NCBI RefSeq assembly: GCF_023264855.1
Contig: NZ_JAHFUW010000036.1
Coordinates: 1 to 46,606, forward strand
Length of the DNA stretch: 46,606 nucleotides
Origin: Herbiconiux sp.
GTDB lineage: Bacteria; Actinomycetota; Actinomycetes; Actinomycetales; Microbacteriaceae
Direction of reading: 5' to 3'
A program made the position numbers and the translations under genes. The notes under the pieces are model-generated. The model was not told where the DNA came from and did not search any database. It worked only from the letters and a program-made list of their open reading frames with translations. Below, one piece after another: positions 5,188 through 40,508 of the stretch. How positions within the stretch are numbered: the first letter of the stretch is position 1; each line of letters begins with the position of its first letter.

Positions 5188-5225
5188 TGACGATCGTAAC
5201 TGCAATGTAATCTGGCCGAAACGAA
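5188..5225 (+). promoter_or_regulatory. Operator-like site A with promoter block, before the aryl-CoA ligase operon
   Basis: TGACGATCGTAA (5188-5199) contains the 8-bp palindrome ACGATCGT, starts directly after the esterase stop codon and lies 104 bp before the ligase ATG. Eight bases after the first ten bases of the site comes TGTAAT (5206-5211), then six bases, then GAAACGAA (5218-5225). The same three blocks with identical spacing occur at site B (10843-10880). The bound regulator is unknown. Confidence 0.6.
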
Positions 5226-5291
5226 CGAACCCTACTGTCGAAGTGAGTACCCGCTCCGTCACGCCGGAATCGAACGAAAGGTGATTCGCTG

Positions 5292-6611
5292 ATGAATGAC
5301 AGCCCGTACTGGAACCCCAAGACCGAGACGATGTCGAGGGAAGACCTGTCGGCCCTGCAGTTCGTGAAGTTCAAGCGCGTGATCGAGTGGGCCGAGGCGC
5401 GCAGCGTCTTCTACAAGAAGTCCTTCCAGCGGGCCGGGTTCACCTCCGCTCAGTTGAACAGCTGGGACGACTACGACCGCGTGCCCTTCCTCACCCGCGA
5501 GGAGTGGATGCGTAGCCAGAACGACTTCCCGCCCTACGGCGAACTGCCGGTGGCCGGGCACGAGAACGCCATCCGCTTCCACACCACGAGCGGCACCTCC
5601 GGCAAGACCCCGCTGCGGGCGCTGGACAGCCGCAAGGACTGGTCGTGGTCGGCCGAGATGTGGTCGTATGCCCTCTGGGGCATGGGCGTGCGGCCGAACG
5701 ACATCGGCTACGTGGCCTTCGGCTACGGCACCTTCATCGGCTTCTGGGGCCTGCACAACGGCCTGGAGAAGCTCGGCGCCACCACCATCCCGGGAGGCGC
5801 GCAGCCCACGCCGACTCGCGTGAAGCAGATCATCGACTACGACGTCACGGTCGTGGCATCCACCCCCACCTATGCGCTGCGACTGGCCCAGGAGGCCGAG
5901 AACCTCGGCATCGACCTCAAGAACTCCAAGGTGAGCCGGATCGTGCTCTCGGGGGAGCCGATCCCGCCGAAGACCAAGGAGCTGATCGAGGAACTCTGGG
6001 GTGCCAAGAGCTTCGACACCGCCGGCATGACCGAGATCTCGACCATCTTCATGTTCGAGCCGGAGGATCAGCCCGGCGGCACCCACATCATCGAAGACCA
6101 GTTCGTGGAGCGGGTGATCGACCCCGAGACCGGCATCGAGCTGCCCTACGGCGAGCGGGGCGAACGCATCACGACCTCGTTCGGCCGCAGCATGATCCCG
6201 CTGATCAAGTACCGTACCTCCGACCTGGTGGTGAAGGTGCCGCACACCATCACCTCGAACGGGCGCACCTGGGATCTGTACCAGGGTGGCATCCTCGGCC
6301 GGGTCGACGACATGAAGCTCGTGCGCGGCACGAACGTGTATCCGCGGGCCGTCGAGGCCATCGTGCGGGCGTTCCCCGTGATCGACGAGTTCCAGGTGAA
6401 GATCACCCGCGAGGGCATCCGCGACGAGATCACGCTGCTGGCCGAGCCGGTGCCCTCGGTGACGGATGCGGAGTGGTCCGAGCTCATCACCAAGCTCGGC
6501 ACCGAGCTGGCCGACGGCCACGAGGGCCTGCGCTTCATCATCGAGCGCGCACCCGAGAACACCCTGCCCCGGTTCGAACTGAAGGCCAAGCGCCTTCAAG
6601 ACCTGCGCTAG
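5292..6611 (+). CDS. Phenylacetate-CoA ligase (PaaK)-family AMP-forming aryl-CoA ligase
   Basis: Adenylate-forming enzyme of 439 residues, the usual PaaK length. The ATP-binding P-loop-like motif TTSGTSGKTP lies near residue 97, DTAGMTEIS is the A5 motif, YRTSDL and GRVDDMKLVRGTNVYPRAVE mark the hinge and C-terminal domain. Family members convert aromatic acids (phenylacetate, 2-aminobenzoate, hydroxybenzoates) to CoA thioesters using ATP. No other phenylacetate genes (paaABCDE) are present, whereas an aryl-CoA monooxygenase/reductase fusion lies 9 kb downstream under a similar operator; a benzoate-type acid such as 2-aminobenzoate or salicylate is therefore a reasonable but inferred substrate. 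AAAGGTG lies upstream of ATG 5292. First gene of an operon with its own promoter block. Confidence 0.88.
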   Translation: MNDSPYWNPKTETMSREDLSALQFVKFKRVIEWAEARSVFYKKSFQRAGFTSAQLNSWDDYDRVPFLTREEWMRSQNDFPPYGELPVAGHENAIRFHTTSGTSGKTPLRALDSRKDWSWSAEMWSYALWGMGVRPNDIGYVAFGYGTFIGFWGLHNGLEKLGATTIPGGAQPTPTRVKQIIDYDVTVVASTPTYALRLAQEAENLGIDLKNSKVSRIVLSGEPIPPKTKELIEELWGAKSFDTAGMTEISTIFMFEPEDQPGGTHIIEDQFVERVIDPETGIELPYGERGERITTSFGRSMIPLIKYRTSDLVVKVPHTITSNGRTWDLYQGGILGRVDDMKLVRGTNVYPRAVEAIVRAFPVIDEFQVKITREGIRDEITLLAEPVPSVTDAEWSELITKLGTELADGHEGLRFIIERAPENTLPRFELKAKRLQDLR

Positions 6612-6651
6612 CGCGACTTCTCTGCTGGCACCGACACCCAAGGAGTACGAC

Positions 6652-6855
6652 ATGGCCGTGGACCTCATCGGCAACGCCCTGACCGCCAAGGAGCAGCAGC
6701 TGCTCGACGCCTACGAGAGCCTCAAGGCGCTCGAAGCCGGCGGCGGACTCGCCCCGAGCACCGAATCGAACGTGCGGGTGGCGCTCAGCGCCCTCGGCGT
6801 GGCCGTCGGCGACCTGGCGCTCGTGTACGAGCACCTCACCGACAGCAACTGCTGA
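6652..6855 (+). CDS. Small protein of unknown function (67 residues)
   Basis: I do not recognise this protein. It has 67 residues, is predicted mainly helical (TAKEQQLLDAYESLKALEAGG then a second helix ESNVRVALSALGVAVGDLALVYEHL), has a single Cys as its last residue and no membrane segment. A strong AAGGAG ribosome-binding site lies 7 bases before ATG 6652, coding statistics match its neighbours, and it sits in tight order between the CoA ligase and a fumarylacetoacetate-hydrolase-fold gene, two bases before the latter. It could be an accessory or assembly factor for one of the two enzymes; this is inference from position only. Confidence 0.75.
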   Translation: MAVDLIGNALTAKEQQLLDAYESLKALEAGGGLAPSTESNVRVALSALGVAVGDLALVYEHLTDSNC

Positions 6856-6857
6856 GG

Positions 6858-7751
6858 ATGCGGCTGGCACGCGTCGCCTACGGCGACGGCATCCGTACCG
6901 CCGTGCTGGGCGAGAAGGAGCAGCTATTCGTGCTGCCGGTCGGCGCTCCCGGTGTCGACGACCTCGTGCGGCTCGGGTTGGGGCCCGCGCTCGCCGAGGT
7001 GTCGGCGCTGCTGGCTTCGGCGGAGGCCGTTCCCGCCGACGCCGTGGTGTTCCTGGCGCCGCTCACCCGCTTCAACCGCGACATCCTCTGCACCGGCTGG
7101 AACTACACCGACCACTTCTCCGAATCGCTCGGCAAGCGCGACGGCCAAGGACCGGTGGAGATGCCGGAGCATCCGACGTTCTTCACCAAGGGGCCGGGCG
7201 TGGTGATCGGCCCGGCCGATCCGATCGCCTTCGACGCCGGGCTCTCGGCGAAGTGGGACTACGAGGTCGAGATCGCGCTCGTGATCGGCACGCCGGGCCG
7301 CTCGTTGCGCGCCGAGACGGCCGCCGATCACGTGTTCGGATACTTCGTGGCCAACGACATCTCGCAGCGCGACCTGCAGCGCCAGCACGGCGGCCAGTGG
7401 CTGAAGGGCAAGAGCGTCGACGGCACGATGCCGATCGGCCCCTGGATCACTACGGCCGACGAGGTCGACCTGACCTCGTTGCAGCTCTCGCTCACCGTCA
7501 ACGGCGAGACCCGGCAGAACGCGCCCGCCACGGCGATGGCCTTCACCGTTCCCGTGCTGCTCGAAGAGCTCAGCCGTGGCATGACGCTCGAGGCCGGCGA
7601 CGTGGTGCTCACCGGCACGCCGAGCGGTATCGGCAGCGCCCGCGAGCCCGCCGTCTTCCTCGCCGACGGCGACGAGATCGTCACGCGCGTCGACGGCCTC
7701 GGCGAGCTGCGCAACCGCGTGACGGCGACGGATCTGACCTCGCCCGCCTGA
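6858..7751 (+). CDS. Fumarylacetoacetate hydrolase (FAH)-family protein
   Basis: Protein of 297 residues with the FAH C-terminal fold, a Mg/Mn enzyme group that hydrolyses or decarboxylates C-C bonds of acylpyruvates and related ring-cleavage products. Visible landmarks: CTGWNYTDHF, the metal-ligand segment KWDYEVEIALVIG near residue 133 with its paired Glu, FVANDISQRDLQ with the third acidic ligand, GKSVDGTMPIGPW, and the closing GDVVLTGTPSGIG and GDEIVTRVDGLGEL. It follows the 67-residue gene by two bases and precedes a VOC protein. In a gentisate-type route it could be a fumarylpyruvate hydrolase; a decarboxylase or hydratase role is equally possible. Confidence 0.9.
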   Translation: MRLARVAYGDGIRTAVLGEKEQLFVLPVGAPGVDDLVRLGLGPALAEVSALLASAEAVPADAVVFLAPLTRFNRDILCTGWNYTDHFSESLGKRDGQGPVEMPEHPTFFTKGPGVVIGPADPIAFDAGLSAKWDYEVEIALVIGTPGRSLRAETAADHVFGYFVANDISQRDLQRQHGGQWLKGKSVDGTMPIGPWITTADEVDLTSLQLSLTVNGETRQNAPATAMAFTVPVLLEELSRGMTLEAGDVVLTGTPSGIGSAREPAVFLADGDEIVTRVDGLGELRNRVTATDLTSPA

Positions 7752-8358: not shown

Positions 8359-9993
8359 CTAGTGGCCCTTGAAGGCCTCGTGGAGCCACCAGGAGCCGCC
8401 GTCGGAGGCGATCTTGGCGTCGATGACGAGGGGGGTGGTGGGGCCGCCGGGGGTGGCGAGCCACTCGTCGAGGGGGGCGAGGTCGGCGGGCGTGCGGACC
8501 GTGAGCCCGGTGGCGCCGTAGCCGCGGGCGATCGAGGCGATGTCGGTCTCGGGGAAGGTCACCGTCGAGAGGTCGGTGTCCGCCCCGAAGTGGTGCACCT
8601 CCGCGCCGTAGGCGGCGTCGTTGTAGACGATCACCACGAGCGGAAGGCCGATGCGCACGGCCGTCTCGAGTTCGGCGATGGCCATCAGGAAGCCGCCGTC
8701 GCCCGTTCCGAGCACCGGCAGCCGCGACGGCTGCGCGAGGCCCGCGCCGATGGCCGTGGCCAGGCCCAGGCCGATCGACTGGAACGCCTGCGTGAAGCAG
8801 AATCCCCGCTCGTCGGGCACCGCGAGGTAGGCGCTCGGGTAGCCCATGAAGTTGCCCGAGTCGATCGAGACGATGCGCTCGGCCGGCAGCCGGAGGTCGA
8901 TCTCCCGCGAGAGCACGCGCGGGTCGATCGAGGTCGCGGTCGAGACATCCGGGGTCTCGACGTCGTTCCAGCGCACCGAACCCGGCAGGGGAGCGGAGCG
9001 GTATCCCGCACCTTCCCGGGGCGAAGCCTCGAGAGCGGCGAGCACGTCCACGGCGGTGAGGGCGGAGTCGCCCACGATGCCGAGGTCGATCGGCCGATTC
9101 GCTCCGAGAGCACGGCCCTCGACGTCGATCTGCACGACCGTGGCATCCGCACCGATCAGGTTGCCGTGACGCATGGTCCACATGTTCAGCGCGCACCCCC
9201 AGCCCACCACGAGGTCGGCCGAGGAGATCAGTTCGGCGGTCAGCGGCGACGAGAAGCCGCCCGAGATGCCGAGCGCGAAGGGCTCGTCGTGGAAGAGGCC
9301 GTTAGCCACCGCCGAGGTGGCGAGCAGGGCTCCGGATGCCTCGGCCAGCGCCGCGATCTCGGCACCGGCTCCACGACCTCCGCGCCCGGCCACGAACACG
9401 GGGCGCGAGGCGGCGCGGATGGCGGTCGCCAACTCCTCGACCGCTGCCGCGGAAGGACGCACCGGGGTGTCGGGAACCACCGCGAGATCATCCGGAAGCG
9501 GCGGCGCGGCGGCGGCCTGCACGTCCAGCGGCAGGCTGATCACCACCGTGCGGCGCTCGTTGACGGCCGTGCGGTAGGCCCGCGTCACGTCGGCGAGGGC
9601 CGTACCGGCCGAGTGCACGCGCTCGGCGACGGCGCCGAGGCTGCGGGCCAGAGCATCCTGATCGATCTTGAAGTTCGAGGTGACCGAGCCGGTGGCCACG
9701 TCGGCGGTGAGCACGATCAGCGGGGTGCGGCTCTTGGCCGCCTCGCCGATGCCCGTGGCCGCGTTGGTGAGCCCGCAGCCCTGATGCGTGGTGAGCACGG
9801 CCGGCAGGTCGCTCATGCGCGAGAAGGCGTCGGCCATGGTGGCCGCGCCGCCCTCGTGCCGCGCGGTGGTGACGGGCACGCCCGCTGCCGCGAGGGCGTT
9901 GGTGACCTCGAAGTTCCCGCTGCCGACCACGGTGAAGACGTGGCCGACACCGAGCCGGCCCAGGGCTGTGCCGACGAGTTCTGCGACGTTCAC
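8359..9993 (-). CDS. Thiamine diphosphate-dependent enzyme, acetolactate synthase-like
   Basis: Protein of 544 residues with the three-domain plan of the acetolactate synthase/benzoylformate decarboxylase family: N-terminal pyrimidine-binding domain with the catalytic Glu47 in ARHEGGAA, a middle Rossmann-like domain (RPVFVAGRGGRGAG), and a C-terminal diphosphate-binding domain with GTGDGGFLMA near 430 followed by VIVYNDAAYG. It makes or breaks C-C bonds next to a keto group, for example decarboxylation of a 2-keto acid. The C-terminus lacks features that would identify a substrate. GTG start at 9993, three bases after the upstream cyclase stop; both genes form a two-gene operon ending in the shared terminator. 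Confidence 0.88.
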   Translation of the reverse strand: MNVAELVGTALGRLGVGHVFTVVGSGNFEVTNALAAAGVPVTTARHEGGAATMADAFSRMSDLPAVLTTHQGCGLTNAATGIGEAAKSRTPLIVLTADVATGSVTSNFKIDQDALARSLGAVAERVHSAGTALADVTRAYRTAVNERRTVVISLPLDVQAAAAPPLPDDLAVVPDTPVRPSAAAVEELATAIRAASRPVFVAGRGGRGAGAEIAALAEASGALLATSAVANGLFHDEPFALGISGGFSSPLTAELISSADLVVGWGCALNMWTMRHGNLIGADATVVQIDVEGRALGANRPIDLGIVGDSALTAVDVLAALEASPREGAGYRSAPLPGSVRWNDVETPDVSTATSIDPRVLSREIDLRLPAERIVSIDSGNFMGYPSAYLAVPDERGFCFTQAFQSIGLGLATAIGAGLAQPSRLPVLGTGDGGFLMAIAELETAVRIGLPLVVIVYNDAAYGAEVHHFGADTDLSTVTFPETDIASIARGYGATGLTVRTPADLAPLDEWLATPGGPTTPLVIDAKIASDGGSWWLHEAFKGH

Positions 9994-9996
9994 GAC

Positions 9997-10779
9997 TCAG
10001 GCGCCGGTGATCGCGAACACGCGGGTGGGGCTTCCGGTGCCTCCCACGATCGGCAGCGGGCTGACGACGAGCATGGCGCCGGTGGCCGGCAGCTCGCCCA
10101 GGTTCTGCAGCGAGGTGAGGCCGTACTTGTCGGCGCCCAGCAGGTAGAAGTGCGCGGGGAAAGCGGGATCCATGCCGCCGGCCGAACCGGCGTCGATGCC
10201 GACCGTCTCCACGCCGAAGCCCGAGATGGGACACTCTTCGGCCAGCCACTTGGCGCAGGCGGCGGAGATGCCGGGGGTGTGCGGGCCGTTCTCGTCGGCG
10301 TTGAGGAACGCCTCCTGGCTGTCGGAGAACTTCTCCCAGCCGGTGCGCAGCAGCAGCCAGCTGTTCGCGGGCAGCTCGCCGTGCTCGGCCTCCCAGGCGA
10401 GGATGTCGTCGATCTCGAGCAGGAAGTCGGCGTCGGCTTCCACCTCGGCGGTCTTGTCGATCACGACGGCAGGACCGATCAGGCGCTCCGGCAGAATCTG
10501 GGAGACGTCGAGCCCGTCGCGGCCGGTGGCCCAGTGCACGGGGGCGTCGAGGTGCGTGCCGATGTGCTCGCCGGTGTGGATGTTGTGGTGCTTCCAGTAC
10601 GGGCCGGGCTCGTTGTAGGCGCTGACCTCTTCGAGGCTGAAGTCGATCAGGTTGGCGAACGGATCCGGCAGCCGCAGGGTGGGGGTGCTGCTGCTCAGCT
10701 TGTTCGTCAGGTCGACGACCTTCAGCGAGCCTCCGGTGATCCCGGACAGGAATTCGGCGATGACATTCGATCCGCTCAC
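9997..10779 (-). CDS. Cyclase family protein (kynurenine formamidase-like metal hydrolase)
   Basis: Protein of 260 residues with the family hallmark HIGTHLDAPVHW near residues 70-81, which supplies His and Asp ligands for a divalent metal, and GVETVGIDAGSAGGMDPAFPAHFYLL in the C-terminal part. Relatives include kynurenine formamidase (KynB), isatin hydrolase and polyketide cyclases, which act on amides or lactam/lactone-like rings. The GTG start at 10779 is preceded by TTGGAGA on the minus strand. Paired with a ThDP enzyme, it could open a ring or hydrolyse an amide to give a keto acid for the partner; that link is inferred. Confidence 0.88.
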   Translation of the reverse strand: MSGSNVIAEFLSGITGGSLKVVDLTNKLSSSTPTLRLPDPFANLIDFSLEEVSAYNEPGPYWKHHNIHTGEHIGTHLDAPVHWATGRDGLDVSQILPERLIGPAVVIDKTAEVEADADFLLEIDDILAWEAEHGELPANSWLLLRTGWEKFSDSQEAFLNADENGPHTPGISAACAKWLAEECPISGFGVETVGIDAGSAGGMDPAFPAHFYLLGADKYGLTSLQNLGELPATGAMLVVSPLPIVGGTGSPTRVFAITGA

Positions 10780-10842: not shown

Positions 10843-10880
10843 TAACGATCGTCATGTCGTTGTAATTCTTTGGAAACGAA
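10843..10880 (+). promoter_or_regulatory. Operator-like site B with promoter block, before the branched-chain-type importer
   Basis: TAACGATCGTCA (10843-10854) has the ACGATCGT palindrome; TGTAAT follows at 10861-10866 and GAAACGAA at 10873-10880, with the same spacing as site A. It lies in the 203-bp divergent region between the cyclase gene (start 10779, minus) and the importer binding protein (start 10983, plus), so it could affect both. The rest of this gap holds no gene that I can support. Confidence 0.6.
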
Positions 10881-10982: not shown

Positions 10983-12188
10983 ATGAAACCCATCGCACGC
11001 ACCGGAGCGGTCGCCGTCGTCGCCGCCTCCCTGTTCCTGGCCGGCTGTGTCAGCACCGCCGCTCCCGAATCCACCTCGGGCGGATCCACCGAGGGCGCCG
11101 CCGGCCTCACCATCGGCGTCGTGATGGCCGAGACCGGCTTCATGTCGCCCTTCGACATCCCCGCCCTGAACACCATCAAGATGGAGGTCGACGAGGTGAA
11201 CGCCGCCGGCGGCATCGACGGCGCCCCGATCGAGCTGAACATCGTCGACACCGGATCCGACCTCGACAAGTACGCCTCGGCGGCCCAGCAGGTCATCGAC
11301 GCCGGCGCCGACGTGATCGTGGTCACCTGCGACTACGACGTGGCGAGCCCCGCCTCGCTCGTGGCGGAGGCCGCGGGCATCGTGAACATCGCCCCCTGCG
11401 TGGGCGACACCATCTACGGCCCGGCCGGCGGCCTGGAGCTCGGCTTCTCGATGGGCAACGGCACGCCCGGCGAGTCGTCGGTGATGGCCGAGTTCGCGAA
11501 CAGCAAGGGCTGGAAGAACGCGGTCTTCCTCACCGACACCTCGATCAAGTACACCGTCGGCCAGTGCGACGTGGCGCAGAAGCGCTTCGAGGAGCTCGGC
11601 GGCACCACCGTCGGCACCTACGACTACGTGCAGGGCGAGTCGATCGTCGAGACCGTCTCGCAGATCACCGCGGGCACTGCGCCCGACGTGGTGTTCAACT
11701 GCGGGTACAGCCCGGGCGGTGCCCAGGCGGCCAAAGACCTGCGCGACAACGGCGTGACCGCACCGATCGTCTCCGGCTTCGGCATGGACGGCACCTTCTG
11801 GCTCGACTCGGTTCCCGGGCTGAGCGACTACTACACCGTCACCTACTCCTCGATCATGGGCGACGACCCGGATGCGGCCGTCAACGAGCTGGCCGACGGC
11901 TACGAGGCCGAGTACGGCGAGCGCCCGAGCGTGGGCAGCTTCGTGACCGGCACCTCCACGGTGCAGGCCCTCGTCGCCGCTCATGAGACCACCGGATCCT
12001 GGGACGGCAAGGCCCTGGCCGACGCCTTCCTCGCCTTCGACGGTCAGGACCTCCTGGTGGGGCCGACCAGCTTCACCGACGAACTGCACATCAATGTCGA
12101 GCGCCCCCAGCGCGTGATGCAGATCACCGACGGAAAGCTCGCCTTCCTCGAGGAGCGGGCGCCCGAGAAGGTCGTCTTCGTTGACTGA
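10983..12188 (+). CDS. ABC importer substrate-binding lipoprotein, branched-chain amino acid type (LivJ/UrtA-like)
   Basis: Extracytoplasmic solute receptor of 401 residues. The ATG at 10983 follows TGGAGG and gives a classic lipoprotein signal: KPIAR, a hydrophobic stretch and lipobox LAGC with Cys22. The mature part begins LTIGVVMAETGFMSPFDIPALN, the type I periplasmic-binding fold used for branched-chain amino acids, urea, amides and aromatic acids. Given the adjacent aryl-CoA genes, an aromatic acid or amide ligand is plausible but not shown. First gene of a five-gene importer operon. Starts further upstream would add an Arg/His-rich stretch that spoils the signal peptide. Confidence 0.92.
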   Translation: MKPIARTGAVAVVAASLFLAGCVSTAAPESTSGGSTEGAAGLTIGVVMAETGFMSPFDIPALNTIKMEVDEVNAAGGIDGAPIELNIVDTGSDLDKYASAAQQVIDAGADVIVVTCDYDVASPASLVAEAAGIVNIAPCVGDTIYGPAGGLELGFSMGNGTPGESSVMAEFANSKGWKNAVFLTDTSIKYTVGQCDVAQKRFEELGGTTVGTYDYVQGESIVETVSQITAGTAPDVVFNCGYSPGGAQAAKDLRDNGVTAPIVSGFGMDGTFWLDSVPGLSDYYTVTYSSIMGDDPDAAVNELADGYEAEYGERPSVGSFVTGTSTVQALVAAHETTGSWDGKALADAFLAFDGQDLLVGPTSFTDELHINVERPQRVMQITDGKLAFLEERAPEKVVFVD

Positions 12189-12969
12189 CCACCCCACCGT
12201 GCAGGGTGAATCCTCTCCGCCGTCAGCAGTCCTGGCGGCGGAGGGGATCTCCCGGCACTTCGCCGGGGTCAAGGCCCTGAACGACGTGCACCTCACCGTT
12301 CCCGCCGGGCGGATCACCGGGCTGATCGGGCCCAACGGCGCCGGCAAGTCGACGCTGGTCAACATCCTGAGCGGGTACGACCGGCCGGATGAGGGGCGCG
12401 TGCTGCTCGGCGGCGTCGACCGCACCCGGGAGCGCTCGTACCGGCGCACCCGCCGGGGCGTGGCGCGCACCTTCCAGCACGGCCACATCTTCAAGGGGCA
12501 GACCATCCTCGAGAACGTGCAGCTGGGTGCGCTCGGGGTGGGCCGCGGATCGCGCGCCGCACGGCGGGAGGCGATCGAGATCCTCGACCGCTTCGACCTG
12601 CTCGAGCACGCCGGCGAGAGCGCCGAGCACCTGCCGCACGGCGTCGAGCGACGCCTGGGCGTGGCCCGCGCGCTCGCCACCCGCCCGAGCCACCTGCTGC
12701 TGGACGAGCCGGCCGCCGGCCTCAACGACGGCGAGATGGAGCTGTTCAAGAGCGCCATCCGCGCAGTGGTCGACGACCTCGGTGTCGGCGTGCTGCTGAT
12801 CGACCACAACATGCGCCTGATCTTCGGCGCCTGCGACCACATCCACGTGCTCGCCGCGGGCGCGAACGTGGTCGACGGCCCGCCCGAGACCGTGCGCACC
12901 GATCCCCGCCTGGCCGAGTCGTACCTCGGCAGCATGGCGGCCACCATCGCGGGAGGCGACGATGCCTGA
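12181..12969 (+). CDS. ABC importer ATP-binding protein, LivG type
   Basis: Cytoplasmic ATPase of 262 residues. Walker A is GPNGAGKST, the Q-loop region TFQHGHIF, the signature is an atypical LPHGVERRL, Walker B LLLDEPAAGLN, and the switch His is in LLIDHNMRLIF. The AAGLN after Walker B and the C-terminal VVDGPPETVRTDPRLAESYLG are typical of LivG/BraF. It starts at a TTG overlapping the end of the binding-protein gene by eight bases and overlaps the next ATPase gene by eight bases, which indicates tight translational coupling. Works as a heterodimer with the following LivF-like protein. Confidence 0.93.
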   Translation: MTDHPTVQGESSPPSAVLAAEGISRHFAGVKALNDVHLTVPAGRITGLIGPNGAGKSTLVNILSGYDRPDEGRVLLGGVDRTRERSYRRTRRGVARTFQHGHIFKGQTILENVQLGALGVGRGSRAARREAIEILDRFDLLEHAGESAEHLPHGVERRLGVARALATRPSHLLLDEPAAGLNDGEMELFKSAIRAVVDDLGVGVLLIDHNMRLIFGACDHIHVLAAGANVVDGPPETVRTDPRLAESYLGSMAATIAGGDDA

Positions 12970-13714
12970 GCGCAGCAGCACGCCGGAGGCCTCATCCGGT
13001 CAGAACCCGATCCTCGAGGTGAAGGATCTCACCGTCGCGTATGGCGGCGTCACCGCGGTGGCGGGCGTCTCGTTCCAGGTCGGTCCGGGCGAGCTCGTGG
13101 GTATCATCGGCCCGAACGGCGCCGGCAAGTCCTCCACGCTGCTCGCGCTGGCGGGCGCCGTGCGCGCCAAGGCGACCACGCTGACCTTCGACGGCACACC
13201 GCTGCTCGGTCGCAAGCCCGAACAGATCGCCCGCTCCGGCTTCGCTCTCGTGCCCGAGGGCCACCACATCTTCGGCGGGCTCACCGTGCGCGACAACCTG
13301 CGCCTGGGCGAAGTGGCCCGCCGTGGCAAGCAGGGGCTGGAGGCCACCCGCGAGTGGGTGCTCGAACTGTTCCCCATCCTGCGCGAGTTCCTCGGCCGGC
13401 AGGCCGGGCTGCTCTCGGGCGGCCAGCAGCAGCAGCTCGCCATCGCGCGCGCCCTGCTCTCCGAGCCTCGCCTGCTGGTGCTCGACGAGCCCTCGCTCGG
13501 CCTCTCGCCCACCGCCATCGACACCGTCTTCGACGCCATCACCGCGGTGCAGCGCTCGGGCACGGCCGTGCTGCTGGTCGAGCAGCGCGCCCAGCAGACG
13601 GTGGCCGCGGCCGCCCGCACCCATGTCCTCGGCGAAGGCAGGATCACGATGACCCTCGGCCCCGCCGACGCCACCGACGCCGAACTCCTCGCGAAGGCCT
13701 ACCTCGGATCATGA
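12962..13714 (+). CDS. ABC importer ATP-binding protein, LivF type
   Basis: Second ATPase of the importer, 250 residues. Walker A GPNGAGKSS, Q-loop region ALVPEGHHIFGGLTVRDNL (typical of LivF), signature LSGGQQQQLAIARAL, Walker B LLVLDEPSLGLSP, and the switch region LLVEQ in place of a His, as in other LivF proteins. ATG 12962 lies within the end of the livG-like gene. The stop overlaps the start of the permease gene by four bases. Confidence 0.93.
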   Translation: MPERSSTPEASSGQNPILEVKDLTVAYGGVTAVAGVSFQVGPGELVGIIGPNGAGKSSTLLALAGAVRAKATTLTFDGTPLLGRKPEQIARSGFALVPEGHHIFGGLTVRDNLRLGEVARRGKQGLEATREWVLELFPILREFLGRQAGLLSGGQQQQLAIARALLSEPRLLVLDEPSLGLSPTAIDTVFDAITAVQRSGTAVLLVEQRAQQTVAAAARTHVLGEGRITMTLGPADATDAELLAKAYLGS

Positions 13715-31967: not shown

Positions 31968-32004
31968 GACCCGGCCCGTTCCGCGCCATCCAGCCCACCA
32001 GACC

Positions 32005-32094: not shown

Positions 32095-32125
32095 ACTCAC
32101 ATCCCCTGAAGAGAGGTCGTTCGAC

Positions 32126-33139: not shown

Positions 33140-33150
33140 CGGCACCTGCC

Positions 33151-33166
33151 GTCCGTCCCGACGGAC
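33151..33166 (+). terminator. Small hairpin after the binding-protein gene
   Basis: GTCCGT (33151-33156) and ACGGAC (33161-33166) pair perfectly around CCCG, 11 bases after the stop. No T tract follows and the next gene continues in the same direction, so this is more likely an mRNA-stabilising or partial attenuator hairpin than a full terminator. Confidence 0.45.
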
Positions 33167-33219
33167 CGATCCACAGCACCACCGACACACTGAACCATCT
33201 GAAGAAAGGCGACGACGGC

Positions 33220-34668
33220 ATGAGCGGATCCACGCGGCTCCTGATCGGCGGCCACTGGGCCGATGCGAGCGACGGCGGCACCCGGGAGACCCGGGACCCG
33301 GCCACCGGTGCCGTGATCGGCTCGGCGGCCGAGGCCACTCGTGCCGACGTCGACGACGCGGTCCGCGCTGCGCGGGAGGCCTTCCGGTCTCCCGCGTGGC
33401 GGGACCTCACCCCTGACGCCCGGGGCCGCCTGCTCTGGCGCGTCGCCGAGCTGATCGAGCGCGACGCCGACGAACTCGCCGCGCTCGAGGTGCTGGACTC
33501 GGGGCAGCCGATCGGCATGGCCCGCGACGTCAACGTGCCGCTCGGCGCCCAGGTCTTCCGTTACTACGCGGGCTACGCCACGAAGCTCGAGGGCAAGACC
33601 ACGCAGGTCTCCATCCGGGGCCAGCTCACCTACACGCTGCGGGAGCCGATCGGCATAGCCGCGCTCATCACCCCCTGGAACGTCCCCTTCGCCATCGCGG
33701 CCTGGAAGCTCGCACCCGCTCTCGCCACCGGCAACGTCGCCATCCTGAAGCCGGCCGAGCAGACGCCGCTCTCCACGGTCAAGCTCGCCGAGCTGTGCGA
33801 GGAGGCCGGCATCCCGCCGGGCGTGGTGAGCCTGCTCACCGGCGGCCCCGAGGTCGGCAGGGCGCTCGTGGCGCACGCCGGTGTGGGCAAGGTCTCGTTC
33901 ACCGGATCCACCGAAGTGGGCCAGGAGATCGTGCGATCCTCGGCCGGCAACCTCAAACGGGTCTCGCTCGAGCTCGGCGGCAAGGCGCCGAGCATCGTCG
34001 CCGCGGATGCCGACATCGACGCGGCCGTGCAGGGCAACCTCCAGGGCGCCGCTTTCAACTCCGGGCAGGCCTGCGGGGCCTACACCCGCTTCTACGTGCA
34101 CGAGTCCCGGTTGGCGGAGTTCTCGGAGAAGATCGCCGCCGCGGCCGAAAAGCTCGTGATCGGCCCGGGCAGCGACCCCGCGACCGTGCTCGGCCCGCTC
34201 ATCTCCGAAGAGCAGCTCGACAAGGTGCACTCCGCCGTGCAGGCGGCCGTCGACGGGGGAGCGATCCTGCTCACCGGGGGTGCGCGCGCCGACGGAGACC
34301 TCGCCTCCGGATGCTTCTACCGCCCGACCGTGCTCACCGGCGTGCGCGACGACATGGCCGTCGCCCGCGAGGAGCTGTTCGGCCCTGTGATCCCGATCTT
34401 CTCCTTCCGCGACCTCGACGAGGCGATCGAGCGGGCGAACGACTCGGCCTACGGCCTGGCCAGCGTCGTCTGGACGAACGACCTCCGCACCGCCCACCGG
34501 GTGGCCGCCGAGGTGCAGGCCGGAACCGTCTTCGTCAACCAGCTCCCACTGATCGACCCGGCGGCGCCGTGGGGCGGCATCGGCCTGAGCGGCTGGGGCC
34601 GCGAGATGGGCTCCTACTCGATCGACGCCTTCACCGAGACGAAGAGCGTCTTCGTCAACCTCACCTGA
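33220..34668 (+). CDS. Aldehyde dehydrogenase (NAD(P)-dependent), second copy
   Basis: Protein of 482 residues. Cofactor site ITPWNVPFAIAAWKLAPALATGNVAILKPAE, FTGSTEVGQEI, general-base Glu in LELGGKAPSIV near 250, catalytic Cys in NSGQACGAYTRFYV near 285, and EELFGPVIPIFSF. The C-terminus has PAAPWGGIGLSGWGREMGSYSIDAFTETKSV. It would oxidise the aldehyde produced by the GMC oxidase two genes upstream. It differs clearly from the dehydrogenase at 22694. ATG 33220 follows GAAGAAAGG; its stop overlaps the next start. Confidence 0.92.
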   Translation: MSGSTRLLIGGHWADASDGGTRETRDPATGAVIGSAAEATRADVDDAVRAAREAFRSPAWRDLTPDARGRLLWRVAELIERDADELAALEVLDSGQPIGMARDVNVPLGAQVFRYYAGYATKLEGKTTQVSIRGQLTYTLREPIGIAALITPWNVPFAIAAWKLAPALATGNVAILKPAEQTPLSTVKLAELCEEAGIPPGVVSLLTGGPEVGRALVAHAGVGKVSFTGSTEVGQEIVRSSAGNLKRVSLELGGKAPSIVAADADIDAAVQGNLQGAAFNSGQACGAYTRFYVHESRLAEFSEKIAAAAEKLVIGPGSDPATVLGPLISEEQLDKVHSAVQAAVDGGAILLTGGARADGDLASGCFYRPTVLTGVRDDMAVAREELFGPVIPIFSFRDLDEAIERANDSAYGLASVVWTNDLRTAHRVAAEVQAGTVFVNQLPLIDPAAPWGGIGLSGWGREMGSYSIDAFTETKSVFVNLT

Positions 34669-35843
34669 TGGCGAGCGGATCGAGAATGAGCGACTCCGTC
34701 GTCATCGCCGGGGCGGCCGAGACGCCGTACACCCGGCATCCGGAACCCCGGGTCACCACGGCCGGCCTGCTCGTGCGGGCTGCCCGCGAGGCCGTCGCCG
34801 CGGCCGGGCTGCGCTGGTCCGACGTCGACGGGCTCGGCGTCTCCAGCTTCACGCTCGGGCCCGACCATGCCGTCGACCTCGCCTGGCGCGCCGGTCTCGG
34901 CCCGCTGCGCTGGCTGATGGAGGACACCAACGGCGGCGCGAGCGCCCTCAACATGCTGCAGCACGCCGAGCTCGCCATCCGTTCGGGCCAGGCCTCCACG
35001 ATCGTGCTGGTGTCGGGCGACCGGATGGATGCCGCGGCGTTCCGGATGCTCGTCGAGCACTACAACCGGTCCACCGAAGACCACCTGGTGCCGTTGCCGG
35101 CCACCGGGCCGAACGCTCTGTTCGCCCTGCTCACCCAGCGCCAGATGACCGCTCTCGGCCTCACTCGCCGCGACTACGGGCGTATCGCCACGGCGCAGCG
35201 GGAGTGGGCCGGGCGGAACCCCGGGGCTGTCTACCGCACGCCGCTGACCCTCGAGGAGTATCTCGACGCGCCGCTCGTGGCCCCGCCGCTCGGCCGCTAC
35301 GACTGCGTGCCGCCGGTGAGCGGCGCCGATGCCGTGGTGCTGACCGCCGCCGGCCCGCCCGGTGCCGAGGGCGGCCGCGCGGTGCGGGTGCTCGCGGTGG
35401 AGACGACGACCGGCATCGACGATCAAGACGGCGACGGTCTCACGACAGGGCTCGTGCAGGCCGCGCCGCGCGCCTGGGAACGGGCGGGCCTCGGTGCCTC
35501 CGACATGCACGTGTTCAGCGTCTACGACGACTACCCGGCGATGGCGCTCGCCCAGCTGATCGACCTGGGGGCCATCGCGGCACCGGATGCGGCGCGCGAT
35601 CTCGCCGAGCGCATCGGCACCCGGCGGCTGCCCGTCAACACCGCCGGAGGCCAGCTCTCGGCCGGCCAGGCCGGTGCGGCCGCGGGCATGCACGGCGTCG
35701 TGGAGACGTACCGGCAGCTCGCGGGGATCGCGGGCGAGCGGCAGGTTCCGGATGCGCGGTTCGGCGTGGTCACCGGCTACGGCATGGTGCTGTACCGGTA
35801 TGGCTCCTGCGCGAACGTCGCGGTGCTGGAGGCCGTGCGATGA
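34668..35843 (+). CDS. Thiolase-fold protein lacking thiolase catalytic residues (Ltp2/SCPx-like)
   Basis: Protein of 391 residues with the thiolase fold. Where thiolases carry the nucleophilic Cys in a CASG stretch, this protein reads DTNGGASALNML, and the later NxHPxG-type His segment reads NTAGGQLSAGQAGAAAGM, without His. The same losses are seen in lipid-transfer-protein-type aldolases such as Ltp2, which pair with a DUF35 protein to cleave a beta-hydroxyacyl-CoA by retro-aldol reaction. A DUF35 gene follows directly. ATG 34668 overlaps the upstream stop (TGATG); ATG 34686 is an alternative that gives MSDSVVIAGA, closer to the usual N-terminus. Confidence 0.85.
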   Translation: MASGSRMSDSVVIAGAAETPYTRHPEPRVTTAGLLVRAAREAVAAAGLRWSDVDGLGVSSFTLGPDHAVDLAWRAGLGPLRWLMEDTNGGASALNMLQHAELAIRSGQASTIVLVSGDRMDAAAFRMLVEHYNRSTEDHLVPLPATGPNALFALLTQRQMTALGLTRRDYGRIATAQREWAGRNPGAVYRTPLTLEEYLDAPLVAPPLGRYDCVPPVSGADAVVLTAAGPPGAEGGRAVRVLAVETTTGIDDQDGDGLTTGLVQAAPRAWERAGLGASDMHVFSVYDDYPAMALAQLIDLGAIAAPDAARDLAERIGTRRLPVNTAGGQLSAGQAGAAAGMHGVVETYRQLAGIAGERQVPDARFGVVTGYGMVLYRYGSCANVAVLEAVR

Positions 35844-36220
35844 GCGGCACATCCCGCGCGGAGGCCGCGGCATCCGGAGCCCTCCCCGCCTTCTTGCAGA
35901 GCTGCCTCGCCTGCGCCACCGTCGTCTTCCCGCCGCGGCTGGCCTGCCGATCATGCGGCGACGACCGCTTCGAACCGGTGCCGGCCGGCCCCGGCGTCGT
36001 CGAGCAGGTCACCGAGCTGCCGGGCGGGCTGCGCATCGCCTCGGTGCGCGCCCGCGGCGTGCTCGTCGTCTGCTCGAGCACCGGAGCGCTCGCCGAGGGC
36101 GACTCCGTCACTGTCATCGGCTCGCCGGGCGACCCGGCCGCCGTTCCCGCGCAGGTGTATCTGCCCGGCTCCGCACACATCCACAACTCCGCACACACCG
36201 AGAACGAGGGAACCCCATGA
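35840..36220 (+). CDS. DUF35 OB-fold protein with rubredoxin-like Zn ribbon
   Basis: Protein of 126 residues. Four Cys ligands (Cys22, 25, 36, 39 in CLAC and CRSC) form a zinc ribbon, followed by an OB-fold acyl-CoA-binding region (EQVTELPGGLRIASVRARGVLVVCSSTGALAEGDSV). Such proteins are obligate partners of thiolase-like enzymes, for example ChsH2 DUF35 with Ltp2. The His-rich tail SAHIHNSAHTEN comes from an 18-bp DNA duplication (CTCCGCACACA twice) and is unusual. Start overlaps the thiolase-like stop; four-base overlap with the CoA ligase. Confidence 0.88.
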   Translation: MSGTSRAEAAASGALPAFLQSCLACATVVFPPRLACRSCGDDRFEPVPAGPGVVEQVTELPGGLRIASVRARGVLVVCSSTGALAEGDSVTVIGSPGDPAAVPAQVYLPGSAHIHNSAHTENEGTP

Positions 36221-37818
36221 CTCGCATTCCTCAATTGGACCGCCCCCTGGCGGACTGCACCATCCCGGCGATGCTGCAGCGGCGCGCCGACGAGATGCCC
36301 GACGACCTGCTGCTGAGCTCGGGCGCGCAGACCCGCACGGGCGCCGAGCAGCTGCGCGTAGTGCGCGGGCTCGGTGGGGTGCTGAGCGACGCGGGTGTGG
36401 CCGTCGGCGACCGGATCGCCATGCTCTCGGGGAACCGGCTCGAGCTGCTGGACATGATCCTCGCGGCCGCCTGGATCGGCGCGGTCGCCGTGCCGTTGAA
36501 CCCCGCACTGACCCCGCCGCAGCTGCGGCACGCGCTGGCCAACAGCGGGGCGCGCCTGCTGCTGGCCGACGAGCAGGGACTGGCCGGATTCGCGCGGCTC
36601 GACGATCCGGTCGGCATCGAGCGGGTGCTGGGTTTCGAGGCGTCCGCCGAGGCCGGCGACGACGGCGCGCGGGTGCTCACGCTGCCGGTGGAGCCGATCC
36701 CGGCGATCTCCCGCGAGGTCGACGCAGCAGCGGTGGCGCCTTCCGACATCGCCGCCATCCTCTACACCTCCGGCACGACCGGGCCGTCCAAGGGCGTGCT
36801 GTGCCCGCACGCGCAGTTCTACTGGTGGGGCCGCAACCAGACCCTGCACATGCGCTTCACCCGGGACGACGTGCTGTTCACGACCCTGCCGCTGTTCCAC
36901 ACCAACGCGCTGAACGCCTTCATCCAGGCCGTCGTCTCCGGCGCCTCCTTCGTGGTGGCGCGGCGCTTCTCGGCCAGCCGGTTCTGGCAGGATGCCGCCG
37001 ACTGCGGCGCCACGTTCACCTTCCTGCTCGGGGCGATGGTGGGCATCCTGCTCAACCGGCCCGACAGCGAGTTCGTGCCGCATCGCGTGCGTGCGGCGCT
37101 CGCCCCGGCCACTCCGGCGCGCATGCTGCCGGAGTTCAAGGAGCGGTTCGGCGTCAACCTCGTCGACGCCTTCGGATCGACTGAGACGAACCTCGCCATC
37201 GCCGTGCCGGTCGACGAGCTGCGGCCCGGGTACCTCGGTGTCTCGGTGCCGGGCTTCGACAACCGGGTGATCGACCCGGAGAACGGCGAGCCGCTGCCCG
37301 ACGGGGTGCCCGGCGAACTGCTCATCCGCAGCGATCAGCCCTACGCCCTCGCCCGCGGCTACTTCGGGATGCCGAACGAGACCGTCAAGGCCTGGGACGA
37401 CCTCTGGTTCCACACCGGCGACCGCGTGGTGCGCGAGGCCGACGGATGGTTCCGGTTCCTCGACCGCATCAAGGACATCATCCGGCGCCGGGGCGAGAAC
37501 ATCTCCTCGGTCGAGGTGGAGTCGACCGTGCTGCAACATCCCGGCGTCGCGGCCGTCGCCGCCTACGCCGTGCCCTCCGAACTCGGCGAGGAAGAGGTGC
37601 AGATCTCGGTCGAGGTCAAGGCGGGAGTCGAGCTGGAGCCGCATGAGCTGATCGAGTTCGTCGAACCGCACCTGCCGCCGTTCGCAGTGCCGCGCTTCAT
37701 CGTGTTCGAGCATGACCTGCCGCGCACGGCCAACGGCAAGGTGAGCAAGGCCGAGCTGCGCAAGCGCGGTGCCGCGGTGCAGCGCTGGGACCGCGAGGCG
37801 GAGACGGCCGACCGATGA
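36217..37818 (+). CDS. AMP-forming acyl-CoA synthetase
   Basis: Class I adenylate-forming enzyme of 533 residues: P-loop ILYTSGTTGPSKGV, substrate region PLFHTNALNAF, A5 motif DAFGSTETN, HTGDRVV, hinge FLDRIKDIIRRRGENISSVEVE and C-terminal Lys in TANGKVSKAELRK. It converts a carboxylic acid to its CoA thioester with ATP. Sequence resembles the crotonobetaine/carnitine and medium-chain ligase group, unlike the PaaK-type enzyme at 5292. It probably activates the acid made by the aldehyde dehydrogenase at 33220, giving the CoA substrate for the thiolase-like/DUF35 pair. Confidence 0.9.
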   Translation: MTRIPQLDRPLADCTIPAMLQRRADEMPDDLLLSSGAQTRTGAEQLRVVRGLGGVLSDAGVAVGDRIAMLSGNRLELLDMILAAAWIGAVAVPLNPALTPPQLRHALANSGARLLLADEQGLAGFARLDDPVGIERVLGFEASAEAGDDGARVLTLPVEPIPAISREVDAAAVAPSDIAAILYTSGTTGPSKGVLCPHAQFYWWGRNQTLHMRFTRDDVLFTTLPLFHTNALNAFIQAVVSGASFVVARRFSASRFWQDAADCGATFTFLLGAMVGILLNRPDSEFVPHRVRAALAPATPARMLPEFKERFGVNLVDAFGSTETNLAIAVPVDELRPGYLGVSVPGFDNRVIDPENGEPLPDGVPGELLIRSDQPYALARGYFGMPNETVKAWDDLWFHTGDRVVREADGWFRFLDRIKDIIRRRGENISSVEVESTVLQHPGVAAVAAYAVPSELGEEEVQISVEVKAGVELEPHELIEFVEPHLPPFAVPRFIVFEHDLPRTANGKVSKAELRKRGAAVQRWDREAETADR

Positions 37819-39248
37819 GCGACGCGACCGCCATCCTGGCCCAGGATGCGACCGGCCAGGCCGAGGCCGTCCGAAGCGGGCTGCTCACCGCGACGGAGTT
37901 GCTCGAGCTGTCGCTCCAGCGCATCGCGGAAGCCGACCCCGCCGTCAACGCGGTGATCCACCTCGATCCGGATGCTGCGCGATGGCCGGTCGAGCCGGGC
38001 CCGTTCTCGGGCGTCCCCCTTCTTCTGAAGGACCTCGGCGCCGCGGCGATCGGTCACCCCGACCACCAGGGCAGTCTCGTCCGCAAGCGGGCCGGCTGCA
38101 CCTTCGACCACGACTCCGCCCTCGTCCGCCGGCTGCGGGCGGGCGGCTTCGTGCCGATCGGGCGCACGAACTCGGCCGAGTTCGGGTTGCACTCCGAGAC
38201 CAGGAACCTCGCCTACGGGCTCACCCGCAACCCGTGGGACCCGGGCCGATCGGCCGGCGGGTCGTCCGGAGGTGCGGCCGCCGCGGTGGCCGCGGGCATG
38301 ACGGCCATCGCGCAGGGAACCGACGGGGGAGGCTCCTTGCGCAATCCGGCGGCGCACTGCGGGCTCGTGGCGCTGAAGGTGAGCCGGGGCACGATCAGCG
38401 GAGCGCCTGCCGGTGAGTCGCTGTACGGCATCTCGCAGCCGGGGCTGCTCACGAAGTCGGTGCGGGATGCCCGCGCCGCGTTCGCGCTGCTGGCCGGTGC
38501 CGAGCCCGGGGACGCGGTGCTGTCGCCCGGCCTCTTCGCCGGTGTCGAGGATGCCGGCACCGTGCACCCGGGTGCGGGACTGCGGATCGGGCTGCTCGAT
38601 CATGACCCGGCCGGCGTCTACGCCGTCGACTCCGAGATCGCCGAGTCGGTGACCCGCACGGGGCGGCTCCTCCAGGGTCTCGGCCACCGAGTGGAGGAGG
38701 CCTGGCCGGAGGCGATGTTCCCGCACGACTTCGCCGAGCACTGGTTCCAGGCCCTGCTGCCGTTCGCGAGGATCGCGCGCGACCGGGCGGTTGCCGCCGC
38801 CGTCGCATCCGGCGTTCCGGGGGCGGCCGAGGCGGGGTTCGATCCGATCACGGACTATTGGGCCGAGCAGGCCGGTGCGCAGAGCTCGGCGCAGCACGTG
38901 GAGGCGATGGGCTGGTTCGACGGGTTCCGCCGCCGCGTGCAGTCGTGGTGGCACGACTTCGACGTGCTGGTCAGCCCCGTGCTCCCACTGCTGCCGCAGC
39001 CGGCCGGCCAGTTCGCCGACCCGGCCACGGGCATCGAGGAGTCCATCCGCATCCTCCGCTTCACCCCGCAGGCGAACATGACCGGACTGCCGGCGATGAG
39101 CGTGCCGGTCGGCTTCAGCGCCGACGGCCTCCCGCTCGCCGTGCAGCTCGTCGGCGCGTACGGAGCCGACCGTCTCCTGCTCGACCTCGCCGGCCGGCTC
39201 GAGCAGGTTCAGCCCTGGCGCACCTCCGTGCTCGCCCCCGCCCTCTGA
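37815..39248 (+). CDS. Amidase signature family enzyme
   Basis: Protein of 477 residues with the amidase signature. The Lys-Ser-Ser triad is visible: Lys71 in PLLLKDLGA, cis-Ser in SAGGSSGGAAAAVAAGM near 147-153, and nucleophile Ser in GTDGGGSLRNPAAHCGLVALK near 174 (usually GTDTGGSIR). NMTGLPAMSVPVGFSADGLPLAVQLVGAYGAD is the C-terminal family motif. It hydrolyses a carboxamide to acid plus ammonia. As last gene of the operon it may act on the oxidised product of the luciferase-like enzymes; substrate unknown. ATG overlaps the ligase stop. Confidence 0.92.
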   Translation: MSDATAILAQDATGQAEAVRSGLLTATELLELSLQRIAEADPAVNAVIHLDPDAARWPVEPGPFSGVPLLLKDLGAAAIGHPDHQGSLVRKRAGCTFDHDSALVRRLRAGGFVPIGRTNSAEFGLHSETRNLAYGLTRNPWDPGRSAGGSSGGAAAAVAAGMTAIAQGTDGGGSLRNPAAHCGLVALKVSRGTISGAPAGESLYGISQPGLLTKSVRDARAAFALLAGAEPGDAVLSPGLFAGVEDAGTVHPGAGLRIGLLDHDPAGVYAVDSEIAESVTRTGRLLQGLGHRVEEAWPEAMFPHDFAEHWFQALLPFARIARDRAVAAAVASGVPGAAEAGFDPITDYWAEQAGAQSSAQHVEAMGWFDGFRRRVQSWWHDFDVLVSPVLPLLPQPAGQFADPATGIEESIRILRFTPQANMTGLPAMSVPVGFSADGLPLAVQLVGAYGADRLLLDLAGRLEQVQPWRTSVLAPAL

Positions 39249-39269
39249 CGATGGGGCGAGCACGCACCG

Positions 39270-39289
39270 CGGGCCGCGAGCCCGGCCCG
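39270..39289. terminator. GC-rich hairpin between convergent genes
   Basis: CGGGCC (39270-39275) and GGCCCG (39284-39289) pair around an 8-base loop, 21 bp after the amidase stop and 10 bp before the end of the second luciferase-like gene. No T tract is present, as is common in high-GC actinobacteria. Confidence 0.4.
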
Positions 39290-39299
39290 GCGGACGAGG

Positions 39300-40406
39300 T
39301 CAGCGGGGGAGGCGGATGCCCTTCTTCTCCAGGCGGGGGAGCACCTCGGCGGCGAAGTAGCCGAGTTCGTCGGTGTAGTTCAGGAAGCTCATCGTCATCC
39401 CCGAGAAGCCGGCCTCGGCGTAGCGGGCGATCTCGTCGGCCACGTCGTCGGGCGATCCGATCAGCGGCACGCTGCCGTGGCCCGCGGCGAAACGGCCGCG
39501 GAACATCGCGAGCATCTCGGGCGTGAACGACTGCGCGTGCAGGCCCTGCAGGCGCATCAGGTTGTCCACGGCGTCCCAGTCGGCGTTCTCGTCGGCGTAA
39601 TAGTGCAAGAACTCCTCGGCCTCGGTGCGGGTAGGTCGGCACACCACGTGGCCGAGCGTGAAGACACCCACGTCGCGGCCGTGGTCGGCCTGGCCGGCGG
39701 CCTTGATCGAGGTCACGATCTCGGCGCCGTCCTCCGGGCCGCCCACCACGGTGAAGGCGTAGTCGGCGTTGCGGGCGGCGAAGTCGCGGCCCTGTTTCGA
39801 CGAGCCGGCGTTCAGCACCGGAACGCCCCCGCCCTGGGGCTTCGGCCAGCCCTCGAGGTGCTTCGAGCTGAAGTATTCGCCGTTCCAGTCGAAGGGCTCC
39901 TCGCTCTCCCACAGGGTACGGATGAGATCCCACCACTCCTGCGCGCGGGCATAGCGGGCGTCGTGATCGGTGGGCAGCTCGGTGCCGAAGGTCTCGTACT
40001 CAGGCTGATTCCAGCCGGCGACGATGTTCAGACCCGCGCGACCGTGGCCGATCTGCGAGGCCGTGGCGAGGGCCTTGGCCACCACGATCGGGTGGTTGAA
40101 GGCCGTGTGCACGGTGGCGAACACGCTGATCTTCTCCGTGATCGCGAGCAGGCCGGCCTGCCAGGCCACGGGGTCGAGAACGGATCCGTGGAAGTTCGTC
40201 GATCCGCCGTAACCGATCCAGCGGGCGATCGGCAGCAGGAAGTCGATCCCCACCTCGTCGGCGAGGCGGCCGAGCGCCATGTTGTCGTCCCAGCTCCCCG
40301 ACCAGCGCTCCGGCACGGTGGTGACCGCGAGGCCGGACGAGCAGTTCGGGCTGAAGAGGCCGAGTTTGAAGTCGGGGAGGGCGAGGGATCCGGTCGGGTT
40401 GGGCAT
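39300..40406 (-). CDS. LLM-class flavin-dependent oxidoreductase, RutA/SfnG-like (copy 2)
   Basis: Bacterial-luciferase-fold monooxygenase of 368 residues, clearly a paralogue of the protein at 25399: both share RWSGSWDDN, GIDFLLPIAR, IGYGG, VFATVHTAFNHP, SQIGHGRAG and NIVAGWN at matching positions, and the C-termini align (GLHAKTFTPEML against GLHAQSFTPEML). N-terminal differences (FSPNCSSGLAVTTVPERW) and pocket-region changes suggest a different substrate or step. ATG 40406 follows AACAGGAG. Upstream on the same strand lies site F. It is convergent with the amidase operon. Confidence 0.92.
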   Translation of the reverse strand: MPNPTGSLALPDFKLGLFSPNCSSGLAVTTVPERWSGSWDDNMALGRLADEVGIDFLLPIARWIGYGGSTNFHGSVLDPVAWQAGLLAITEKISVFATVHTAFNHPIVVAKALATASQIGHGRAGLNIVAGWNQPEYETFGTELPTDHDARYARAQEWWDLIRTLWESEEPFDWNGEYFSSKHLEGWPKPQGGGVPVLNAGSSKQGRDFAARNADYAFTVVGGPEDGAEIVTSIKAAGQADHGRDVGVFTLGHVVCRPTRTEAEEFLHYYADENADWDAVDNLMRLQGLHAQSFTPEMLAMFRGRFAAGHGSVPLIGSPDDVADEIARYAEAGFSGMTMSFLNYTDELGYFAAEVLPRLEKKGIRLPR

Positions 40407-40484
40407 GTGGGCTCCTGTTCGGGTCGACGCTCACACGGTATGCCGCCCGGGGCCGGATGCGGAAGGCCCGCGCCGAGGTTTAAT

Positions 40485-40508
40485 ATTCTTGAAACGTGGC
40501 GATCGTCA
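40485..40508 (-). promoter_or_regulatory. Operator-like site F, before LLM copy 2
   Basis: On the minus strand TGACGATCGCCA (40508-40497) starts with the stop codon of the PaaX-type gene, 102 bp upstream of the LLM start. Eight bases after the tenth base comes AAGAAT, in the register of TGTAAT at sites A and B, followed by ATTAAA, an unusually AT-rich stretch for this window. A separate promoter for the LLM gene is likely here. Confidence 0.55.

Follow-up and report, generated by a model that had tools for sequence, protein, structure and literature searches.

Six operator-like sites in a Herbiconiux catabolic cluster and their probable PaaX-family regulator

Gene content and operator-like sites of the window

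We analyzed a stretch of 46,606 bases (the window, hereafter), which is one contig (C88; NZ_JAHFUW010000036.1) of the 4.37-Mb Herbiconiux sp. genome, itself assembled in 97 contigs. The simple gene caller of this analysis predicts 44 genes in the window. The element of interest is a short palindromic motif found at six places in front of catabolic and transport genes of an aromatic-acid breakdown cluster, which includes genes of the pathway through the coenzyme A (CoA) thioester of anthranilate, and its probable reader is a PaaX-family repressor encoded in the same stretch.

The genes considered here begin on the forward strand with a PaaK-like aryl-CoA ligase (5292-6611; PaaK is the best model, with a score under its cut-off) and an FAH-family hydrolase that belongs to the conserved core of these clusters (6858-7751). 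On the reverse strand follow a thiamine-diphosphate (TPP) enzyme (8359-9993), for which no model was above its cut-off among the matches listed, and a cyclase-family relative of isatin hydrolase (9997-10779; PF04199), whose best solved relative is the isatin hydrolase 5nmp (E=2.6e-73). Five forward genes (10983-15680) code for an ATP-binding cassette (ABC) importer of the branched-chain-amino-acid type, with a PF13458 binding protein, and next to them lies a fusion enzyme of the salicylyl-CoA 5-hydroxylase / 2-aminobenzoyl-CoA monooxygenase-reductase type (15752-18025, forward), which reaches 1110.1 bits with model NF006101 (cut-off, 1078). Further on we found a flavin adenine dinucleotide (FAD)-dependent oxidoreductase (18512-20095, reverse), the cupin, acyl-CoA thioesterase, and RidA genes, also part of the conserved core (20204-21938, forward), an aldehyde dehydrogenase (22694-24199, reverse; PF00171), and a LysR-type regulator (24367-25308, forward). 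Further downstream, a luciferase-like monooxygenase (39300-40406, reverse; PF00296) lies beside the gene of the PaaX-family regulator (40506-41381, reverse), a protein of 291 amino acids.

A pattern search confirmed all six sites listed in the initial annotation. The first, TGACGATCGTAA (5188-5199, forward), immediately follows the stop codon of the gene upstream and precedes the ligase gene. The second, TAACGATCGTCA (10843-10854, forward), sits between the divergent isatin-hydrolase relative and importer, and the third, TGACGAACGTAA (15681-15692, forward), is upstream of the fusion enzyme. The fourth, TTACGAACGGAA (20140-20151, forward), separates the divergent FAD oxidoreductase and cupin operon, and the fifth, TGACGATCGACA (24273-24284, reverse), the divergent aldehyde dehydrogenase and LysR gene. 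The sixth, TGACGATCGCCA (40497-40508, reverse), is upstream of the luciferase-like gene and, as had been noticed, overlaps a stop codon, that of the PaaX gene, which makes up its first three bases as read on the minus strand. From site start to gene start we measured 104, 140, 71, 64, 85, and 102 bp, in agreement with the range of 64 to 140 bp first described. The count of six missed one further match, TCACGATCGGCA (32892-32903, forward), which we rejected as a seventh operator, as it lies within the coding region of a gene for a binding protein.

The luciferase-like monooxygenase has a paralogue in the window (25399-26505), and the two are 70% identical over 357 aligned positions; the motif is found upstream of the 39300-40406 copy only.

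Form and distribution of the motif

The conserved object is a 12-bp palindrome, TNACGAWCGTNA, and the search pattern TNACGAWCGNMA covers one side of it only. Three of the six window sites fit the palindromic form TDACGAWCGTHA, while the other three depart from it in one half. Over 33 instances gathered by hand (the 6 of the window and 27 from relatives, leaving out L048 as a near-duplicate of L047), positions A2, C3, G4, and C7 of the core dyad are present in 33/33 and G8 in 32/33.

Within the window, TNACGAWCGNMA gave eight rows, which correspond to seven distinct places (5188, 10843, 15681, 20140, 24273, 32892, and 40497), against an expected count of 0.24 and a maximum of 2 in 100 shuffles. 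The whole genome gave 97 rows, or 92 distinct places. Coding status was taken from the simple gene caller run on the stretch around each match, and local codon scores, used as a second method, gave the same status for the seven places of the window. Five of these are intergenic, one is at a gene edge, and one is coding, whereas the 85 places outside are coding in 77 cases, intergenic in 6, and at a gene edge in 2. Non-coding matches are thus 6/7 inside versus 8/85 outside (Fisher p=2.7e-5), and the outside density predicts 0.086 non-coding sites per window-length stretch where six were observed. Further regulon members could exist elsewhere in the genome, for example among the eight non-coding or edge matches outside the window.

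The strict palindrome TDACGAWCGTHA occurs at eight distinct places in the genome, three of them in the window; of the remaining five, four are coding and one (C19:19511) is at the edge between two convergent genes. A looser form, TDACGNNCGTHA, has 21 distinct places compared with 9 for a reversed control. Eighteen are outside the window, and 14 of these could be usefully classified (L126 was left out for a wrong offset, together with 3 further places), with L020 and L123 apparently non-coding. At L123 (position 1501; G000:C40:59635), TAACGCTCGTCA stands in this apparently non-coding DNA, and it is a possible extra site with a relaxed motif.

We then turn to related clusters, for which the initial annotation had proposed a scan with a weight matrix. 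Relatives of the window PaaX were found at 17 named loci, with the fusion enzyme linked in 12 of them, mostly together with RidA, FAH, cupin, and thioesterase genes. The other five (L047, L048, L051, L053, and L054) are without this link in the stretches compared, and at L047 and L048 the sequence TGACGATCGATA lies about 80 bp upstream of a luciferase-like gene near PaaX. The matrix was trained on the six window sites alone and scored against shuffles. It reached p<0.05 in 24 of 32 promoter regions, and p<0.01 in 14, in a set bounded by a rule that was written after an earlier scan of these loci; the set comes from 35 loci found with the cupin protein, 3 of which were dropped for having no divergent cluster gene. 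In a second set of 26 regions, which were picked by hand after the matches had been seen and do not include L043-L046, L048, L050 (the same cluster as L035), L051, L053, and L054, the figures were 16/26 at p<0.05 and 13/26 at p<0.01.

Two genomes extend this picture. G155 has a site upstream of its PaaX gene (p=0.001). In G083, one 60-kb stretch has two PaaX genes and homologues of the TPP enzyme, the FAD oxidoreductase, the luciferase-like enzyme, the isatin-hydrolase relative (two), a VOC protein, and all five importer genes, and 5 of its 16 best matrix places are before or between homologues (64 bp upstream of the TPP gene, 74 bp upstream of the VOC gene, between isatin hydrolase and PaaX, between RidA and FAH, and upstream of the ligase). 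The same stretch (L039-L041; G083:C6:30001-90000) carries the core cluster twice, with two different PaaX genes within the 60 kb.

The operator may be longer than the 12-bp palindrome, about 36 bp. Outer elements close to ATNNC and GNNAT are placed symmetrically, one helical turn (11 bp) outward from each core half-site, and over the 33 instances T-11 is present in 28/33, C-8 in 24/33, G19 in 28/33, and A22 in 28/33. Downstream, a -10-like element, TGNNAT, is found at offset 18 in 10/33. As the outer elements of divergent promoters may be two -10 elements, this question can be judged only from the 11 non-divergent instances. In these, the mirror score is 1.5 at zero shift and the next highest is 1.12, at shift +2; in permutations, the mirror symmetry has p=1.5e-4 for the 11 and p=8e-4 for the 9 that remain without near-duplicates. 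With the window only, the six sites together give p=0.017 and the three non-divergent ones p=0.13. Since the symmetry was noticed after looking, and is therefore post hoc, and the downstream part may be a -10 element, we put the longer operator forward tentatively and regard it as rather doubtful. If real, the outer half-sites would inform how PaaX-family repressors read DNA, and the PaaX proteins of these clusters may read four half-sites, either as two interleaved dimers or through a second DNA-contacting surface.

A separate element, TATTGAC, is strongly kept at a near-fixed distance before the core palindrome in the RidA/FAH or RidA/cupin gaps of L052, L055-L063, and several of L163-L195. 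It could serve as a -35 element, as the -10 element for the divergently transcribed RidA, or as an outer half-site.

Regulator candidates and extent of the regulon

The PaaX-family protein encoded at 40506-41381 quite probably uses the six sites as its operators. The protein has the N-terminal, Cas2-like middle, and C-terminal domains of the family (PF07848, PF20803, and PF08223, all above the gathering score). It is not assigned to the PaaX of phenylacetate degradation, as it scores 147.9 bits with the TIGR02277 equivalog model (cut-off, 264.55). The initial annotation had named PaaX-family and LysR-type proteins as candidates, and PaaX is favored over LysR by the distribution of both among relatives and by one clean negative case. 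Among 299 genomes of the family, the fusion enzyme is present in 7 (E<=1e-150) and a PaaX relative in 4 (E<=1e-60). The negative case is G019, which has the core cluster and no PaaX at E<=1e-8; its cluster promoter lacks the motif, with p=0.93 for the six-site matrix. In G019, an IclR-family regulator is found between RidA and FAH (L140:4480-5250); apparently the regulator has been exchanged and the motif lost. In G018, a PaaX of 39% identity is on the same contig, about 2 kb beyond the stretch compared, and there are two motif-like sites (p=0.028 and 0.074).

Several results weigh against this assignment. The threshold of p<0.05 was missed by 8 of the 32 rule-bounded regions and by 10 of the 26 hand-chosen ones; in at least 3 of those eight (L164, L167, and L170), one of the two best places of a wider matrix is a diverged form such as CAACGGTCGTGC. 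The relatives are not independent, so the p-values of the clusters are not to be multiplied, and the PaaX-less cluster is a single case. G006 has a PaaX of 34% identity and the cluster, yet the six-site matrix finds nothing in its promoter (p=0.43), where the eight-base core ACGATCGT is nevertheless readable. Of the 16 best places in G083, 2 fall within a homologue and 9 have none nearby. Last, the region upstream of the window PaaX gene holds none of the twelve best matrix places of the window, so self-control by means of this motif is not evident here.

An improbable alternative is that a regulator from elsewhere binds the motif, such as a second PaaX-family protein on contig C40, while the local PaaX controls something else. 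This paralogue does exist, 32% identical to the window PaaX (C40:87986-88723), although the clusters in which the motif recurs have a PaaX gene of their own close by, and the 27.8 kb surrounding the paralogue hold no exact match to the pattern. When nine E. coli paa proteins were compared with the DNA surrounding it (L031), only PaaX matched, so the C40 paralogue is outside any evident paa cluster.

Binding by the LysR-type protein, which would then control the units, is even harder to defend. Its gene is within the cluster and site 24273 is in its divergent promoter, but at E<=1e-60 it matches in its own genome only, out of the 299, and it was not listed in the motif-carrying loci of the relatives at cut-offs of E<=1e-10 and 40% coverage. 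We rejected LysR as the binder on this distribution, since at these cut-offs it does not travel with the motif. The least credible explanation, that the pattern is chance or a by-product of shared promoter sequence, has in its favor that TGACG resembles a TTGACG-like -35 hexamer with a -10-like element at constant distance in many instances, and against it stand the conservation of the full dyad, the mostly coding matches elsewhere in the genome, and the pattern-free promoter of the PaaX-less G019 cluster.

Under control by the window PaaX, a dimer would sit on TNACGAWCGTNA close upstream of a -10-like element and block the polymerase, repressing the anthraniloyl-CoA catabolic units. Once the ligase had activated anthranilate, anthraniloyl-CoA or a close aryl-CoA would release the repressor, and the upper and lower pathways would be switched on together. 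Binding, repression, and effector are predictions, and release by anthraniloyl-CoA is probable by analogy with MeqR2 of plasmid pAL1. As three of the sites (10843, 20140, and 24273) are between divergent genes, the six can serve up to nine units, which would be the ligase operon, the importer, the isatin-hydrolase/TPP pair, the fusion enzyme, the cupin operon, the FAD oxidoreductase, the aldehyde dehydrogenase, LysR, and the luciferase-like gene.

The regulon most likely comprises about 5.3-24.3 kb, together with the luciferase-like gene (39.3-40.4 kb), as predicted from the placement of the sites. In the matrix scan of the window, the six places that rank after the six sites score at most 12.3 and are all inside genes, so the stretch at 25.4-39.2 kb has no comparable site ahead of its genes; the first operon has its promoter off the contig. 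A single regulon under the PaaX-family protein finds good support in the cross-genome comparison; the reach over most of the window, as proposed at the outset, is too wide. The block at 25399-39248, which contains genes for a sugar-type ABC importer, a GMC oxidoreductase, a thiolase-like protein, a CoA ligase, and an amidase and has no comparable site, may be under other control.

The operator marks the isatin-hydrolase relative, the TPP enzyme, the importer, the aldehyde dehydrogenase, and one luciferase-like monooxygenase as probably belonging to the same pathway. A route from isatin through isatinate, 2-aminobenzaldehyde, and anthranilate to anthraniloyl-CoA would fit the hydrolase, the TPP enzyme, the aldehyde dehydrogenase, and the ligase, with its second and third steps (isatinate to 2-aminobenzaldehyde to anthranilate) being guesswork. 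The regulon would then define an upper pathway from isatin to anthraniloyl-CoA that includes the luciferase-like monooxygenase. Relatives of the isatin hydrolase (E<=1e-60) are present in 12 of the 299 family genomes and in only two (G000 and G083) of the 7 with the fusion enzyme (E<=1e-150), so a fixed pairing of isatin hydrolase with the anthraniloyl-CoA cluster is not borne out as a general rule. A 2018 review lists the functional identification of the isatin hydrolase gene involved in degrading indole among topics that merit study (PMC6221969).

Comparison with E. coli PaaX and plasmid pAL1

The window PaaX belongs to the same three-domain protein family as E. coli PaaX, to which it is 23% identical. 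A 2022 review presents the E. coli protein as an aryl-CoA-responsive repressor whose inducer is phenylacetyl-CoA, and states that no structure of a PaaX-operator complex was known (PMC9493321). There is a solved E. coli PaaX chain, 8a39. The binding sequence reported there for E. coli, TGATTC(N27)GAATCA (PMC9493321), differs from the compact 12-bp palindrome of the window, and its widely spaced halves may be the same outer pair described above. Upstream of E. coli paaA, we could read TGATTC, 27 bases, and GAATC by eye, while regular expressions found one half-site motif only; we do not use the E. coli paa region as a yardstick and do not claim the same architecture for it.

The nearer parallel is plasmid pAL1 of Arthrobacter sp. 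Rue61a, the one compared among 156 plasmid records with PaaX relatives. In a single block it carries RidA, FAH, cupin, thioesterase, ligase, and fusion enzyme genes along with two PaaX genes, so that pAL1 and the window both have the core genes, PaaX, and the motif in gaps. The window matrix found TGACGATCGTAA in the RidA/FAH gap of the plasmid, TTACGATCGTCA at L120:11756, TGACGGTCGTCA upstream of the second PaaX gene, and a pair, TGACGCACGTCA and TGACGCCCGTCA, in the gap that separates the xanthine-dehydrogenase-type and FAD-monooxygenase genes; these are five gap sites among the best matrix places, with an incomplete gene table for pAL1. According to Niewerth et al. (2013, J Bacteriol), MeqR2 of Arthrobacter Rue61a reportedly binds TGACGNNCGTcA at pAL1 promoters and is released by anthraniloyl-CoA. 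From its gene position, we take ARUE_RS22915 to be the candidate for MeqR2. As in the MeqR2 type, the regulator gene of the window is clustered with genes of the anthranilate CoA-thioester pathway, and palindromic sites of the operator form TGACGNNCGTCA occur in the cluster promoters, as six non-coding sites in the window, three of which depart from the palindrome in one half, and five gap sites on pAL1.

The two systems differ in their upper pathways. According to the published account, pAL1 has one for quinaldine, degrades anthranilate solely via the CoA-thioester pathway, and has two PaaX-related regulators that take part in the control of quinaldine degradation (PMC3534580), whereas the window has the isatin-hydrolase relative, TPP enzyme, importer, and luciferase-like gene. 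Kinship counts against a simple equation of the two regulators, as the window PaaX is 31% identical to the presumed MeqR2 and falls in a separate clade of a tree with some open forks. With this identity and the other clade, the window PaaX would work like MeqR2 on the present evidence without being its close relative. What appears to be new is the clade of the regulator and a predicted regulon with an isatin-hydrolase relative, a TPP enzyme, an importer, and an aldehyde dehydrogenase. The analysis provides an operator tested by cross-genome comparison and a likely regulator for clusters of the anthraniloyl-CoA type across actinobacteria, and the operator set is most likely of the kind reportedly described on pAL1.

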